Origin: Sandaracinus amylolyticus
Lineage (GTDB): Bacteria > Myxococcota_A > Polyangia > Polyangiales > Sandaracinaceae
Assembly: GCF_021631985.1 (NCBI RefSeq)
Contig: NZ_CP070225.1
Coordinates: 7,812,001-7,876,000, forward strand
Length of the DNA: 64,000 nt
Direction of reading: 5' to 3'
This document shows positions 33,661-41,460 of the stretch, piece by piece. Under the pieces are notes generated by a model. The model worked only from the letters and a program-made list of their open reading frames with translations, was not told where the DNA came from and did no database searches. The position numbers and the translations under genes are program-made. Numbering within the stretch: position 1 is the first letter of the stretch; each line of letters opens with the position of its first letter.

Positions 33661-34302
33661 ATGCGGATCGCGTGCTGGGGGATCGTGGTGCTGGTCGGAT
33701 GTGGGGGCGGTCCGGCGACCCGCGACGATGCCGCGCCGCCCGTCGCACGGAGCGAGCCCTTCGTCGTCGACGGGCTCGTGTTGTGGAACGAGCCGATCGA
33801 TCGCGCGCCCGACGCGGTGCGCGAGATGTGGTCGTTCATCGACGCGGTGATCGCTGCGAGCGACGACGCGCCGCGCGCCGCGACGCCCGAGGGCGCGTGG
33901 CTCACCGACGTCTACCTGCCCTACTGGGCCGAGGTCCGAGCGCGCATCGAGCCGCGCGGGCACGCGCTGGTCGCGACGCGCGAGCGCGCGTTCGCGGAGC
34001 TCCCGGCCTACGGCCTCTTCGAGACGCTCACCTCGCTCGTCGCGACCGAGCACGAGATCCGCGCGCTCGACGAGGCCGGCTTCGAGCCCGTCGTCGGCGG
34101 CTGCGGCAACGGGCCCTGGGGCACGCTCGGCGATCTCCTCGACGACTGCCGCGAGCACGCCGAGCGCTGCGTGCGCCTCGCCGCCGAGGCGACCGGTGCG
34201 ATGCGCGAGAACGTCGAGCCGTGCGCACGGCGCGCCGCGATCTGCCGCGCGCGCCACGCCGCCGCGGAGCAGGACGTCTGCGAGGTCGACTACCCGGAGT
34301 GA
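33661..34302 (+). CDS. Cysteine-containing lipoprotein, unknown function
   Basis: 213 residues from the ATG at 33661, chosen because it begins a short lipoprotein signal (RIACWGIVVLVGCGGG). The mature part has a helical region with LPYWAEVRARIEPRGHAL and several cysteines near the end (DDCREHAERC, EPCARRAAICRA, QDVCEVD), likely disulphide-bonded. Its last 13 bases overlap the end of the convergent histidine kinase gene. The family is not recognised. Confidence 0.75.
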   Translation: MRIACWGIVVLVGCGGGPATRDDAAPPVARSEPFVVDGLVLWNEPIDRAPDAVREMWSFIDAVIAASDDAPRAATPEGAWLTDVYLPYWAEVRARIEPRGHALVATRERAFAELPAYGLFETLTSLVATEHEIRALDEAGFEPVVGGCGNGPWGTLGDLLDDCREHAERCVRLAAEATGAMRENVEPCARRAAICRARHAAAEQDVCEVDYPE

Positions 34303-35900
34303 GCTGCGTCGCCGCCGCTCTCGTCGATCGCGAAGTACGCGCTGAGCCGACCGTCCTCGGCGATCGTCGCCACCGCGCCCTCGCTGCCGAGCATCGCCTC
34401 GAGCACCCCCGGCGCGATCGCGGTGCCTGCCACCCCCTCGACCGTCACGCGCGCGTAGCGTCCCGGCGGCAGGCCGAGCGCCGCGGCGCGCGACTGGTCG
34501 AGGGTGTCGTTCGACGTCGCGACCTCGAGCGTGCCTCCGTCGCCGAGCGCGTCGCGCGCGTTCGCGACGAGGTTCACGACGAGCTGATCGAAGTGCACCG
34601 GCACGATCGACACCGGCAGCGCGCGACGCGCCTCGAGCCGGATGCGCACCCGCGCGCCCACCAGCAGCTCGAGCATCGGCGCCAGCTCGCGGACCCGCGC
34701 CGACGCGTCGATCACCCGCGCCTCGGTGGGCTCGCGTCGCGCGAACGCGAGGAGCTGCCGCGTCATGTGCCCGGCCTGGAAGACCGCGCGCTCGATGTCG
34801 GCGGCGCGCGCCCGCTGCCACTCGCTCGTGAACGAGCCGTCGAGCAATTCGATCTGCCCGGCGATCGTCATCAGCGCGTTGTTGAAGTCGTGCGCGATGC
34901 CGCCCGCGAGGCGCCCCACCGCCTCCATGCGCTGGCCGTGCGCGAGGCGCTGCTCGAGCTGCTTCCGATCGGTCACCGCGAGCGCGACGCCGCGCATGCT
35001 GTGATCGCGCCCGGTGCCCGTCAGATCGTGATCGCCGCGCAGCTCGAGCCACACCGTCCCGCCGTGCGGCGTGCGGGCCCGGCACTCGACGCGCAGGTCG
35101 ACGCCCTTGGTGCGCGACGCGTCGAACGCCGCGCGCACCGCGTCGCGCTCGCCGGGATCGATCGCGCGCAGCAGCTCGTCGAGGCTCGCCGGCGCCCACC
35201 CGCGCGGCCGCGCGATCAGCGCACCGAACGAGTCCGACACGTCGAGCGCGTCGCGCGCCGGCCACCACCGCCAGATCGCGATCCGCGCCGCGCCCAGCGC
35301 GAGCCGCAGCTCGGTCTCGCGCTCCCGCAGCATCGTCTCCGCCTCGCGCCGTCGCGCGCTCTCGATCGCGAGCCCGACCATGTCGCCGATCGAGCCGGCG
35401 AAGAACTGCTCCTCCGCGGTCCAGGTGCGCGCCGGCCCGACGTGCTCGTGACAGACCACGCCGACCGAGCCCACGCCGCCGACCACCGGCGCGTCGAGCA
35501 GCGCGCCCACGCCGAGGGCGTCGAGGTAGCTCTCGCGCAGCGCGGCGGTGCGAGGATCGCTGCGCGCGTCGTGGGCGTCGATGATGCGATCCGAGTCGAG
35601 CGCCTCGAAGTACACGCGGTGATCGTCGCGCGTGATCACGAGATCGTCGGTGTGCGTGCCGCTGCTTCGATCGAAGAGGCACACGCACCGCAGCGTGCTG
35701 CGCTCGGCGTCGTCGAAGAGCCAGATCCCCACCCGCGCGACGTCGAGCGTGCTCGCCGCGACCGCGGTGATCTCCCGGAACGACGCGCGCACGTCGGCGC
35801 CCTGGCCGCGCGAGCTGCGCGACAGGCGCCCCAGCGCCTCCAACATCGCGCGGAGGCGGGGGAGCTCGCTGCCCGGCGTGGCGATGTCGTCGCTCCCCAT
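34290..35900 (-). CDS. GAF-PAS histidine kinase with degenerate ATPase domain
   Basis: 536 residues from the ATG at 35900. A GAF domain (~40-180) has the VGVVCHEHVGPARTW signature; a PAS domain (~195-315) follows. The dimerisation box is GGIAHDFNNAL with phosphoacceptor H337. The N-box (VVNLVANARDAL, 441-452) is intact, but the G1, F and G2 boxes expected over ~485-530 are missing: residues 486-492 read TVEGVAG instead of a DxGxG loop, and no GxGLGL follows. ATP binding is therefore doubtful. It is divergent from the GAF-STAS gene, whose GAF domain is clearly paralogous. It may be a phosphatase-type or dimer-only sensor. Confidence 0.88.
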   Translation of the reverse strand: MGSDDIATPGSELPRLRAMLEALGRLSRSSRGQGADVRASFREITAVAASTLDVARVGIWLFDDAERSTLRCVCLFDRSSGTHTDDLVITRDDHRVYFEALDSDRIIDAHDARSDPRTAALRESYLDALGVGALLDAPVVGGVGSVGVVCHEHVGPARTWTAEEQFFAGSIGDMVGLAIESARRREAETMLRERETELRLALGAARIAIWRWWPARDALDVSDSFGALIARPRGWAPASLDELLRAIDPGERDAVRAAFDASRTKGVDLRVECRARTPHGGTVWLELRGDHDLTGTGRDHSMRGVALAVTDRKQLEQRLAHGQRMEAVGRLAGGIAHDFNNALMTIAGQIELLDGSFTSEWQRARAADIERAVFQAGHMTRQLLAFARREPTEARVIDASARVRELAPMLELLVGARVRIRLEARRALPVSIVPVHFDQLVVNLVANARDALGDGGTLEVATSNDTLDQSRAAALGLPPGRYARVTVEGVAGTAIAPGVLEAMLGSEGAVATIAEDGRLSAYFAIDESGGDAAHSG

Positions 35901-35941
35901 GTGTATCGACGATACGTCCCCCGTCCCCACCCGAACAACTC

Positions 35942-36071
35942 TGTCCACGGCGGGAGTGCTCGCCTGCGCGGGGCCCGCACGGAAGCGTGCGGAGCACGCG
36001 CACAGGAGGGCCCTGCGCGGGCGAGCCGACGGACGACTCTGTCCAGTGAACACAAACGTCCGGTTGTCCAC
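35942..36071. promoter_or_regulatory. TGTCCAC half-sites in the divergent kinase/RsbR promoter region
   Basis: TGTCCAC occurs at 35942-35948 and 36065-36071, and TGTCCAG at 36039-36045. The same half-site forms the perfect palindrome upstream of the GGDEF-EAL gene (39378-39392). A shared regulator of the module would explain this; chance occurrence in GC-rich DNA is not excluded. Confidence 0.35.
35953..36029. repeat. Intergenic repeat, copy B, with conserved hairpin
   Basis: This matches 2343-2430 closely, with the same CCGCACG / CGTGCGG stem and the GGGCGAGCCGA end. It lies in the divergent region between the histidine kinase and the GAF-STAS gene, among the TGTCCAC half-sites. Confidence 0.7.
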
Positions 36072-36143
36072 CGCCACAACGGAACGATTTCACGACGGCA
36101 TACGACGTGCTCGGAGGCGACGCGCTCCAAGGAGGTCGTCCCG

Positions 36144-37277
36144 ATGTCCCCGCCGAACGCGATCCCCCGGCCCTCGTCGCTCCCGCCCGACGACCCGCGC
36201 GACGCCGTCCTTCGCCGCCACAACCAGATCCTGCTCTCGCTGGCGAAGAGCACCGAGCTCGACGGCTCCGATCTCCAGCGCGCGTGGCGGCTGCTGACCG
36301 AGGCCGCGGCGCACGGCATCGGGACCGAGCGCGCGTCGATCTGGTTCTTCGACGAGGGCCGCACCCGGATCGAGCTCGTCGACCTCCACGAGGCCTCGAA
36401 GAGCGCGCACTCCGCGGGGTTCGTGCTGAAGTCGGCGGACTACCCCGCGTACTTCGCGGCGCTCGCCGAGGATCGCACCATCGCGGCGAGCGACGCGCGC
36501 AGCCACGTCGCGACGCGCGAGTTCAAGACCGGCTACCTCGAGCCGCTCGACATCCACTCGATGCTCGAGGCGCCGATCCGCCGTCGCGGCAAGGTCGTCG
36601 GCGTCCTCTGCCACGAGCACGTCGGCGAGCAGCGCACGTTCTCGCGCGAGGAGGAGCAGCTCGCGGCGAGCATCGCCGATCTCGTCGCGCGCACCCTGGA
36701 CGATCGTGACCGCCTCGCGGCCGAGCACGCGATGCGCGAGGCGAACCGCGAGCTCGAGGAGCACAAGGCGCGGCTCGAGCAGGAGGTCGCGGAGCGCACC
36801 CGCGCTCTCGCCGAGCGCAACGCCGAGAACCAGGAGCTCATCCGCCGGCTGCGCACCGCGGTCGAGCAGCTCTCGAGCCCGGTGCTCGAGCTGTGGGAGG
36901 ACGTGCTCGCGGTCCCGGTGATCGGCGTGGTCGACTCGGAGCGCGCCGCGATGCTGGTCGAGCGCGTGCTCGCCGACGTCGCGCACCGCAACGCGCGCTT
37001 CGTGCTGATCGACCTGACCGGCGTCGACGTGGTGGACACCGGGACCGCGGATCGCCTGGTGAAGCTGGCGCGCGCGGTGGAGCTGCTCGGTGCGCGCTGC
37101 GTGCTGACCGGCCTGCAGCCGCTGGTCGCGCAGACCCTGGTCGATCTCGGCGCGGACTTCGGCGAGCTCGAGACGCTGCGCAACCTGAAGCAGGGCCTGG
37201 TGCACGCGCTGCAGCACCAGCGCTCGCGCCGCGAGCAGACGCGCGGCCTCGAGAGCGCGCCCGCCCCCCGCCGCTGA
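36144..37277 (+). CDS. GAF-STAS protein, RsbR-like stressosome component
   Basis: 377 residues; the ATG at 36144 has a perfect AAGGAGGT seven bases upstream. GAF domain ~40-190 (VGVLCHEHVGEQRTF at 152-166); a charged coiled coil at ~190-238 (REANRELEEHKARLEQEV); STAS domain ~245-360. Threonines T299 (VVDTGTAD) and T322 (LTGLQP) appear to occupy the positions phosphorylated by RsbT in RsbR proteins. In a stressosome such proteins sense a signal N-terminally and sequester or release an RsbT kinase. Two RsbT-like kinases and an RsbX-like phosphatase lie downstream, but no separate RsbS. Its GAF domain is paralogous to that of the divergent kinase. Confidence 0.9.
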   Translation: MSPPNAIPRPSSLPPDDPRDAVLRRHNQILLSLAKSTELDGSDLQRAWRLLTEAAAHGIGTERASIWFFDEGRTRIELVDLHEASKSAHSAGFVLKSADYPAYFAALAEDRTIAASDARSHVATREFKTGYLEPLDIHSMLEAPIRRRGKVVGVLCHEHVGEQRTFSREEEQLAASIADLVARTLDDRDRLAAEHAMREANRELEEHKARLEQEVAERTRALAERNAENQELIRRLRTAVEQLSSPVLELWEDVLAVPVIGVVDSERAAMLVERVLADVAHRNARFVLIDLTGVDVVDTGTADRLVKLARAVELLGARCVLTGLQPLVAQTLVDLGADFGELETLRNLKQGLVHALQHQRSRREQTRGLESAPAPRR

Positions 37278-37339: not shown

Positions 37340-39340
<2,001 letters not shown>

Positions 39341-39377
39341 GCTCGCCAGCTCTGCTCCGTCCGCGTCGGGACAGGAG

Positions 39378-39392
39378 TGTCCACGGTGGACA
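39378..39392. promoter_or_regulatory. Perfect palindrome, candidate upstream activating site
   Basis: TGTCCAC-G-GTGGACA is a perfect 7+1+7 palindrome centred about 77 bases upstream of the -12 element at 39461, the distance usual for enhancer sites of sigma54 activators. The activator gene ends just before it. Confidence 0.5.
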
Positions 39393-39447
39393 GCTTCGTC
39401 CGTGCGCGGACGCGTGGCGTTTCTCGGAATTCCTCGCCAACGACGGC

Positions 39448-39463
39448 TGGCGTCTCGTTTGCG
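39448..39463 (+). promoter_or_regulatory. Sigma54 (-24/-12) promoter for the GGDEF-EAL gene
   Basis: TGGC-N7-TTGC with exact GG-to-GC spacing (TGGCGTCTCGTTTGCG) matches the sigma54 core at all eight invariant positions; the middle ACG is GTC. Predicted transcription starts near 39474. This is only eight bases before the ATG at 39482, which would favour the in-frame GTG at 39515 (preceded by AAGGGA) as the true start of the gene. Confidence 0.6.
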
Positions 39464-39481
39464 AAGGGGGCCGCGCCCACG

Positions 39482-40825
39482 ATGACAGTGCACGTTCCGA
39501 AGGGACAGCCCGAGGTGCCGGAAGGGTCGGCCCTCCGCTCGATCCCGCCCGCGCTCGCCCGCGTCGGGGTCGACCCGCTCACCGGTCTTCCCGGGCACCA
39601 CGCGCTGCACGCGTGGCTGGAGCGCGCGATCGCGCGCTGCGAGGTGCGCGATCGGCCGGTGTCGGTCGTCGTGCTCGACCTCGACCGCTTCGGCGAGGTG
39701 AACCGGATCGTCGGCCACACCTCGGGCGACGACGTGATGCGCGAGATCGCGCGCGCGCTCGAGCACGCCGACGGCGATCTGCCCGCCGATGCCGGAGCGC
39801 CGATCATCGTGCGCTCGAGCGGCGACGAGTTCGCGGCGTTGCTCGCCGGGTGGTCGCGCGAGGAGGCCGTCGCGTGGGCCGATCGCAAGCGCGCGGCGAT
39901 CGCATCGCTGCGCTTCCTCGCCGGTCACACCTGCTCCGCGTCGGCCGGCGTCGCGACGTACCCGGTGGACGCGCCCGATGCACGCGAGCTCGTGGTGAGC
40001 GCGCGCGCCGCGCTGCGCGTCGGCAAGCGCGAGGGACGGAACTGCACGCTCGCGTACCAGCCCGCGCACGACGGCGCGTGCGGCATCGCCGAGCGCGTGG
40101 TGCACGCGCTGCTCGAGCGCCGCGGGGCGCGCGCGCTGGCGTTCGTGCACCAGCCGATCGTGCGCGCGAGCGATCACGAGATCGTCGCGTGCGAGGCGCT
40201 GTGCCGGCCGCGCCTCGAGCGCTACGCGTCGCCCGCCGCGCTCTTCGCGGCGGCCGCGGCGTCCGACGTCGTCTGGGAGATCGGGCGCCTGGTGCGCAGC
40301 GTCGCGACCGAGCCGTTGCGCCGCGATCCCAGCCTCGTGCCGCTCTTCCTCAACCTGCACCCGCACGAGCTCGCGGATCCCACCCTCGTCGATCCCGAGG
40401 GCGAGCTGCGCGCGCTCGCGCCCCGCGTGGTGCTGGAGATCGGCGAGTGCGCGCGCCTGTCCAGCCTCGACGCAGCGCGCGCGACGATCGATCGCCTCCA
40501 CACGCTCGGCTTCCGGGTCGCGCTCGACGATCTCGGCGCCGGCTACGCGACGCTGCGCTGGATGTCGGAGCTCGACCTCGACTACGTGAAGCTCGATCGC
40601 ACGCTGATCGCCGACCTCGACGGCTCGGCGGCGCGCCGCACGCTGGTCCAGGCGCTGATCGAGTTCGCGCACCAGCGCGGGCAGATCGTCGTCGCCGAGG
40701 GCGTGGAGACCGAGGCCGAGCGCGACGCGCTGGCCGGCCTCGGGTGCGATCTCCTGCAGGGTTGGCTCTTCGGGCGGGGCACGAGCCAGGTGCCTCGCTT
40801 GCCGTCCGAAGGAGAGAAGCGATGA
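39482..40825 (+). CDS. GGDEF-EAL c-di-GMP turnover protein
   Basis: 447 residues from ATG 39482; GTG 39515 is an alternative (436 residues). The GGDEF domain (~30-190) has the active-site variant SGDEF (113-117); such variants can still make c-di-GMP. The EAL domain (~200-440) keeps E238 of EALCR, N291, E319, D349-D350, K370, E406 and Q426, so phosphodiesterase activity is likely. There is no sensor domain and no transmembrane segment, so input must come from partners. Its TGA overlaps the ATG of the RsbT-like gene (ATGA, 40822-40825), tying c-di-GMP turnover to the partner-switching kinase. It lies behind a sigma54 promoter. Confidence 0.93.
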   Translation: MTVHVPKGQPEVPEGSALRSIPPALARVGVDPLTGLPGHHALHAWLERAIARCEVRDRPVSVVVLDLDRFGEVNRIVGHTSGDDVMREIARALEHADGDLPADAGAPIIVRSSGDEFAALLAGWSREEAVAWADRKRAAIASLRFLAGHTCSASAGVATYPVDAPDARELVVSARAALRVGKREGRNCTLAYQPAHDGACGIAERVVHALLERRGARALAFVHQPIVRASDHEIVACEALCRPRLERYASPAALFAAAAASDVVWEIGRLVRSVATEPLRRDPSLVPLFLNLHPHELADPTLVDPEGELRALAPRVVLEIGECARLSSLDAARATIDRLHTLGFRVALDDLGAGYATLRWMSELDLDYVKLDRTLIADLDGSAARRTLVQALIEFAHQRGQIVVAEGVETEAERDALAGLGCDLLQGWLFGRGTSQVPRLPSEGEKR

Positions 40826-41460
40826 GCGCGGTCGCGCAGAGCGCGGTGCTCGCGATCCTCGAGCAGCACATCTCGCCGCTGCACGCGCGCGCGATGCTCG
40901 CGCGTGCGGTCGGGAGCGATGGCGCGATCGAGATCGGTCGGCTGCCCGAGCTGGTGGAGGCCCTCGAGCGCGGCGTTCGTCTCTTCGGAGGCGCGCGTCT
41001 CGAGGACACGATCAAGAGGCAGATCCTCGCCCTCGCGCCCAGCGAGGCGAGCGAGGTGCGCATCGAGATCGCCGAGGAGCGCGACGTGATCGAGGCGCGG
41101 CTCGCGGCGCGCCAGCTCTGTCAGACGCTGGGCACCCGCGCGCTGGTGATCCAGCGCGTGGCGACCGCGGTCAGCGAGCTCGCGCGCAACGTGAGCCTCT
41201 ACGCAGGACGCGGGGTGGTGACGATGACGCCCCTGCGTGGCGGTGCGGCGCTGCGCATCGTGGTCGAGGACGAGGGACCGGGGATCGCGGACCTGAAGTC
41301 GGTGCTCGACGGGACGTACGTGAGCAGGACCGGGATGGGCAAGGGGCTGCTCGGCGTGAAGCGCCTGGTCGACGAATTCGACGTGAAGACCGGCCCGCGC
41401 GGCACGCGCGTCGAGGCGACGGTCGTGCTCGACCCGACGAGCGGAGGGATGGCGCGGTGA
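40822..41460 (+). CDS. RsbT-like serine/threonine protein kinase with N-terminal extension
   Basis: 212 residues. The C-terminal ~130 are an RsbT/RsbW-type HATPase: N-box ELARNVSLYA (119-128), G1 DEGPGI (150-155), G2 GMGKGLLGVKRL (171-182). The first ~75 residues form an extra helical domain (ILEQHISPLHARAMLARAV; LVEALERGVRLF) not present in Bacillus RsbT (~133 aa). In stressosomes RsbT phosphorylates the STAS domains of RsbR/RsbS and is then released to activate a downstream partner. The overlap with the GGDEF-EAL gene suggests stoichiometric expression. The extension may bind the GGDEF-EAL or STAS protein. Confidence 0.9.
   Translation: MSAVAQSAVLAILEQHISPLHARAMLARAVGSDGAIEIGRLPELVEALERGVRLFGGARLEDTIKRQILALAPSEASEVRIEIAEERDVIEARLAARQLCQTLGTRALVIQRVATAVSELARNVSLYAGRGVVTMTPLRGGAALRIVVEDEGPGIADLKSVLDGTYVSRTGMGKGLLGVKRLVDEFDVKTGPRGTRVEATVVLDPTSGGMAR

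Follow-up and report, generated by a model that had tools for sequence, protein, structure and literature searches.

Does the stretch between a sigma54 activator gene and a GGDEF-EAL gene of Sandaracinus amylolyticus form a promoter controlled by the neighboring activator, and at which codon does the controlled gene begin? An earlier note on this DNA proposed that a perfect palindrome and a sigma54 promoter form an enhancer-promoter pair in this region. We analyzed the region within the window, which is the whole stretch of 64 kb that contains it.

Gene order and the activator protein

The genes of the locus are arranged as follows.

34290-36077, minus strand: histidine kinase gene.
36144-37277, plus strand: GAF-STAS protein gene.
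37340-39340, plus strand: sigma54 activator (enhancer-binding protein) gene, with Pfam matches Response_reg, PAS_3, Sigma54_activat, AAA_lid_14 and HTH_8.
39482-40825, plus strand: GGDEF-EAL gene from its preferred start, ATG 39482, with Pfam matches GGDEF and EAL and a 92% identical ortholog.
40822-41460, plus strand: HATPase_c_2 gene, whose first 4 bases are also the last 4 of the GGDEF-EAL gene.

The HATPase_c_2 gene and the GGDEF-EAL gene are probably one operon. The GAF regions of the histidine kinase and the GAF-STAS protein were found to be about 36% identical (cross-hits in the sister species), a likeness that suggests duplication. The genome contains one rpoN gene, with a single Sigma54_DBD match (E 1.6e-65), and no known RNA family was found in the 64-kb window.

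The activator consists of receiver, PAS, AAA+ and Fis-type HTH domains (PF00158, 210.8 bits; PF02954, 47.3 bits). In both this species and its sister species the activator loop reads GAFTSA instead of GAFTGA. Among the 70 activators of the genome, which were taken from 87 family matches with the weak ones left out, this protein alone has GAFTSA, while 46 have GAFTGA and 2 were left unassigned. NorR in which serine replaces the second glycine of GAFTGA has been reported to be active without signal and still partly under the control of its sensory domain (PMC2941729). Because the same change is active in NorR, GAFTSA is compatible with sigma54 activation; by analogy, the activator studied here may be leaky. 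The rarity of the loop, 1 in 70 activators, counts against the sigma54 switch proposed below.

A sigma54-type element and three phased inverted repeats

The following putative promoter features lie between the two genes.

39448-39462, plus strand: sigma54-type -24/-12 element TGGC-GTCTCGT-TTGC, with TGGC at 39448-39451, TTGC at 39459-39462 and N7 between them.
39474, plus strand: predicted transcription start, 12 nt past the C of TTGC.

Transcription from -24/-12 promoters starts about 12 nt after the GC. The exact 7-nt spacing described previously was confirmed, and the end of the element was corrected from 39463 to 39462. Taken alone, TGGC-N7-TTGC was rejected as significant, since it occurs at chance level (1 in the 64-kb window, 0.8 expected). 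The published consensus, TGGCACG-N4-TTGC, has AC after TGGC (PMC9765219), which the N7 found here lacks, and this counts against the sigma54 promoter model. A weak stem resembling a terminator (CGCCA...TGGCG, 39435-39452; 1 found, 0.2 expected) shares bases with the -24 element, and the sister species shows no change in the paired bases of this stem.

The palindrome proposed as the enhancer site, TGTCCACGGTGGACA, is indeed present and perfect at 39378-39392, and its center at 39385 is 77 nt 5' of the C of the -12 element. As an element by itself it was also rejected, because 26 palindromes with 7-bp arms and a 1-base spacer were found in the window, with 24.8 expected at 73% GC. We found that it is the middle member of three tandem inverted repeats of the form GTCC-N5/6-GGAC, which are absent from the earlier note and form an array at 39359-39411.

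39359-39372: dyad 1, GTCC-N6-GGAC, center 39365.5, -108.5 from the predicted start.
39379-39391: dyad 2, GTCC-N5-GGAC, core of the palindrome, center 39385, -89 from the predicted start.
39398-39411: dyad 3, GTCC-N6-GGAC, center 39404.5, -69.5 from the predicted start.

The half-sites begin at 39359, 39379 and 39398 (GTCC) and at 39369, 39388 and 39408 (GGAC), and the centers are spaced by exactly 19.5 bp each. Read in one direction, the six half-sites share YGTCCRCG beyond the tetramer, a consensus drawn by eye.

We then searched the window, simulated sequence and 97 further 3-kb loci from this genome for any tetramer forming three equally spaced dyads. The window has one such array, and 1 Mb simulated with a second-order Markov model gave none, so it is the array rather than its single elements that exceeds chance. 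The sole match in the 97 other loci was a tandem minisatellite in locus L096 (positions 567-700), whose 22-bp repeat is CGCTCCCGCGAGCGAACCGACG. In six whole genomes, the two-dyad pattern was observed at this locus only, in the genome studied here and in that of its sister species. The 15-mer palindrome has one exact copy genome-wide and one copy with one mismatch, the latter within long open frames. These counts and the restriction of paired dyads to this locus in six genomes gave no sign of a wider palindrome regulon.

Conservation in the sister species

We searched 56 genomes, including that of the species itself. The activator (E<=1e-110) was found in two of them, its own and that of a sister species in the same genus (G001), and the close (92%) GGDEF-EAL ortholog was found in the same two. 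All seven neighboring genes are syntenic in the sister species. A search for further orthologs in the genome contigs returned 147 stretches that matched a pattern, none of which was a relative.

In the ungapped block at 39369-39481, the two species differ at 17 of 113 positions, which fall in the dyad spacers, in the promoter N7 (two changes) and in the stretch between. All 14 bases of the palindrome arms and all 8 core promoter bases (TGGC and TTGC) are unchanged. If the differences were scattered at random, the joint probability of sparing arms and core would be P = 0.018, a value that is only modest because it comes from a single comparison genome; for this one sister species the separate values are P = 0.26 for the core promoter bases and P = 0.087 for the palindrome arms. 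Five of the six half-sites are kept. Dyad 1 lacks its left half there owing to a gap, dyad 2 differs in its central base alone, and dyad 3 keeps both half-sites with a diverged spacer. The segment from 39463 to 39484, through ATG 39482, is identical. Because the locus was found in two genomes only, the conservation is weak evidence.

Sigma54-type sites close to start codons across the genome

To place the promoter element in its genomic context, we took all 98 TGGC-N7-TTGC sites of the genome (loci L037-L134) with 1.5 kb on each side and predicted genes with a purpose-written codon-usage caller; the comparison also covered loci L208-L232 of the sister species. The total is below that of the reversed control (98 vs 242), so raw counts give sigma54 use no support. 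Position relative to genes does support it: 58 of the 98 sites are wholly or partly outside predicted genes, compared to 6.9% of window 15-mers.

We found that many of these sites are followed closely by a start codon. An ATG lies 13-17 nt after TTGC at 19 of the 98 sites and 12-20 nt after it at 21 (P = 3e-8). At distances of 13-15 nt, a spacer of 7 gave 16 sites, while spacers of 4, 5, 6, 8, 9 and 10 gave 2, 2, 0, 5, 1 and 2, respectively. The short distance between TTGC and ATG thus depends on the sigma54-type spacing. Across 96 genomes of the order, 2111 matches had an ATG at 13-17 nt and 1196 had one at 33-37 nt; the nearer position was the more frequent in 82 genomes, with 3 equal. Several pairs hold the same TTGC-ATG distance in the sister species though the N7 differs, one of them at 19 nt. 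This is the distance at the GGDEF-EAL gene, and it recurs in a lipoprotein gene in both species (L123/L223).

A lipoprotein signal, called by a simple rule, starts from that exact ATG in 8 of the 17 genes (>=60 codons) with an ATG at 13-17 nt, compared to 31 among 245 other genes (P = 0.001). Since a signal peptide must be N-terminal, translation of those lipoprotein genes very probably does begin at this ATG. The first ten codons after the candidate near-leaderless ATGs show 10, 9 and 9 differences at codon positions 1, 2 and 3 (16 pairs, in which L062 and L063 are one site). TCG was observed directly before NTTGC at 15 of the 98 sites, the present one included, 13 of these 15 being intergenic; this motif was picked post hoc and is possibly a local extended consensus.

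We tentatively propose, with confidence somewhat short of even, that sigma54 promoters of this myxobacterial lineage often abut the start codon, giving near-leaderless mRNAs (leaders of 2-8 nt) preferentially for lipoprotein genes, with the GGDEF-EAL gene as a member. If true, an activator-controlled sigma factor would be coupled to translation without Shine-Dalgarno pairing in a lineage-wide expression class. No description of sigma54 promoters against start codons was found in the titles or abstract openings of the papers listed from an open-access library. Sigma54 has been linked to the bacterial exterior, including lipoproteins, by Francke et al. 2011, who are reported to use 100-nt distance bins (PMC3162934); such bins would hide a peak near the start codon.

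Translation start of the GGDEF-EAL gene

ATG 39482, GTG 39515 and the AAGGGA at 39500-39505 are located as described previously. The leader from the predicted start at 39474 to ATG 39482 would be about 8 nt, and the earlier note had preferred GTG 39515 on account of this shortness. That argument did not hold, as very short leaders recur after sigma54-like sites in the genome and the 19-nt distance of this gene is matched at a lipoprotein gene in both species. The AAGGGA, which resembles a ribosome site for GTG 39515, reads AAGCGA in the sister species, whereas the bases from 39463 to ATG 39482 are identical. On these grounds, ATG 39482 is quite likely the start of the gene.

Translation from GTG 39515 behind a real sigma54 promoter is the strongest of the alternatives, though an unlikely one. 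In the window AAGGGA lies 9 nt upstream of this GTG. Moreover, the 3 species differences between ATG 39482 and GTG 39515 are all at first codon positions, so that the first 11 codons are without a coding signature. The change to AAGCGA and the recurrence of very short leaders argue against this start.

Proposed switch and alternative explanations

We propose that a local, NorR-like three-dimer enhancer and a sigma54 promoter drive the GGDEF-EAL operon, and we consider this reading reasonably likely. The earlier proposal of an enhancer and a sigma54 promoter beside the activator gene is strengthened, at the level of sequence, by the three phased dyads, the conservation in the sister species, the co-occurrence of the activator and the presence of rpoN. 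The intergenic region at 39341-39481 would then be a self-contained sigma54 switch. A signal, perhaps via the histidine kinase (34290-36077), would phosphorylate the receiver of the activator. Dimers of the activator, encoded by the upstream gene, would bind the three dyads through the half-site YGTCCRCG, 19.5 bp or about two helical turns apart. The three dimers on the array, 70-110 bp upstream, would come together as an AAA+ ring, whose ATP hydrolysis would bring sigma54-RNA polymerase at TGGC-N7-TTGC (39448-39462) into the open complex. Transcription would start at about 39474, and ribosomes would most likely begin at ATG 39482, behind the leader of about 8 nt, to make the GGDEF-EAL enzyme and, from the next gene, the HATPase protein. 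We infer the binding of the activator to the dyads, the transcript start, the dependence on rpoN and the start codon.

A competing explanation involves a further feature, identical in the sister species.

39463-39470, plus strand: GAAGGGGG, resembling a ribosome site, 11 nt before ATG 39482.

As GAAGGGGG is 5' of the predicted start, it would be usable on a read-through transcript only. It would be useless on a transcript from 39474, and its conservation counts against the sigma54 promoter model. The dyads could bind the activator or another regulator while transcription of the GGDEF-EAL gene begins at a promoter further upstream or elsewhere, with GAAGGGGG as the ribosome site for ATG 39482 and TGGC-N7-TTGC as a coincidence. 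The 0.8 such elements expected by chance per 64 kb and the identity from GAAGGGGG through the ATG favor this explanation. However, the element is correctly positioned downstream of both the activator gene and the proposed enhancer array, such sites preferentially lie, at least in part, outside genes (58 of 98, against 6.9% of positions), and no sigma70-like site was found in 39200-39700. We regard this explanation as unlikely, slightly more so than a start at GTG 39515.

The array could also act as RNA, as a nested hairpin at the 3' end of the activator transcript serving as an attenuator, terminator or stability element. The segment 39355-39415 folds at -37.2 kcal/mol (z = -4.38), which was matched by none of 200 shuffles. 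T39396 is a C in the sister species, converting a G-U pair to G-C (by eye), and the separate weak terminator-like stem overlapping TGGC exceeds the 0.2 expected. Against this, any dyad array of this type folds well as RNA, three stems of one tetramer at helical spacing are more than a hairpin needs, and loss of the left GTCC breaks the outer stem in the sister species. These points make an RNA element improbable.

Finally, it is very improbable that the frame from GTG 39377, open in both species, is translated with the palindrome as coding sequence: 3, 8 and 6 of the differences in 39377-39481 are at first, second and third codon positions, whereas the gene body has 23, 14 and 80, which led us to reject coding constraint on the leader, and the codon model puts the gene start at 39482.

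Comparison with known systems

The proposed enhancer and sigma54 promoter resemble the NorR/norVW system of E. coli, in which three tandem inverted-repeat activator sites lie 5' of a sigma54 promoter with an adjoining activator gene. All three NorR sites are reported to be needed and to scaffold the active oligomer (PMC1274295, PMC2941729). The locus differs in its core, which is reported as GT-N7-AC for NorR (PMC1274295) and is GTCC-N5/6-GGAC here, corresponding to GT-N9-AC and GT-N10-AC. It also differs in that norR is divergent and its product has a GAF sensory domain, whereas here the gene order is tandem and the activator carries receiver and PAS domains. The locus would work like a NorR/norVW switch but is not a member of that system, as core consensus and sensory domain differ.

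The Nla28 regulon of Myxococcus xanthus is similar in that a myxobacterial activator has tandem half-sites 5' of TGGCACG-N4-TTGC promoters (PMC9765219). The Nla28 half-site is, according to the same report, the 8-bp CT(C/G)CG(C/G)AG, with variable spacing and many targets, mostly intragenic (PMC9765219), whereas one target and fixed spacing were found here. The locus offers a clean single-target model in which three activator dimers at fixed spacing would build one AAA+ ring, and in which sigma54 would regulate the gene of a c-di-GMP enzyme.

The short leader is reminiscent of the leaderless genes of Deinococcus-Thermus, where a promoter element abutting the start codon is reported as a common mode of expression (PMC12340547). 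The elements reported there are -10 elements (PMC12340547), and those found here are -24/-12 elements. Should sigma54 promoters directly next to start codons prove real, the start sites of many myxobacterial lipoprotein genes and the regulation of their translation would be predictable from DNA and directly testable. The locus would be a switch of a known, ordinary kind; the candidate class of near-leaderless sigma54 promoters, a by-product of the analysis, is of greater interest and may outweigh the locus itself in importance.
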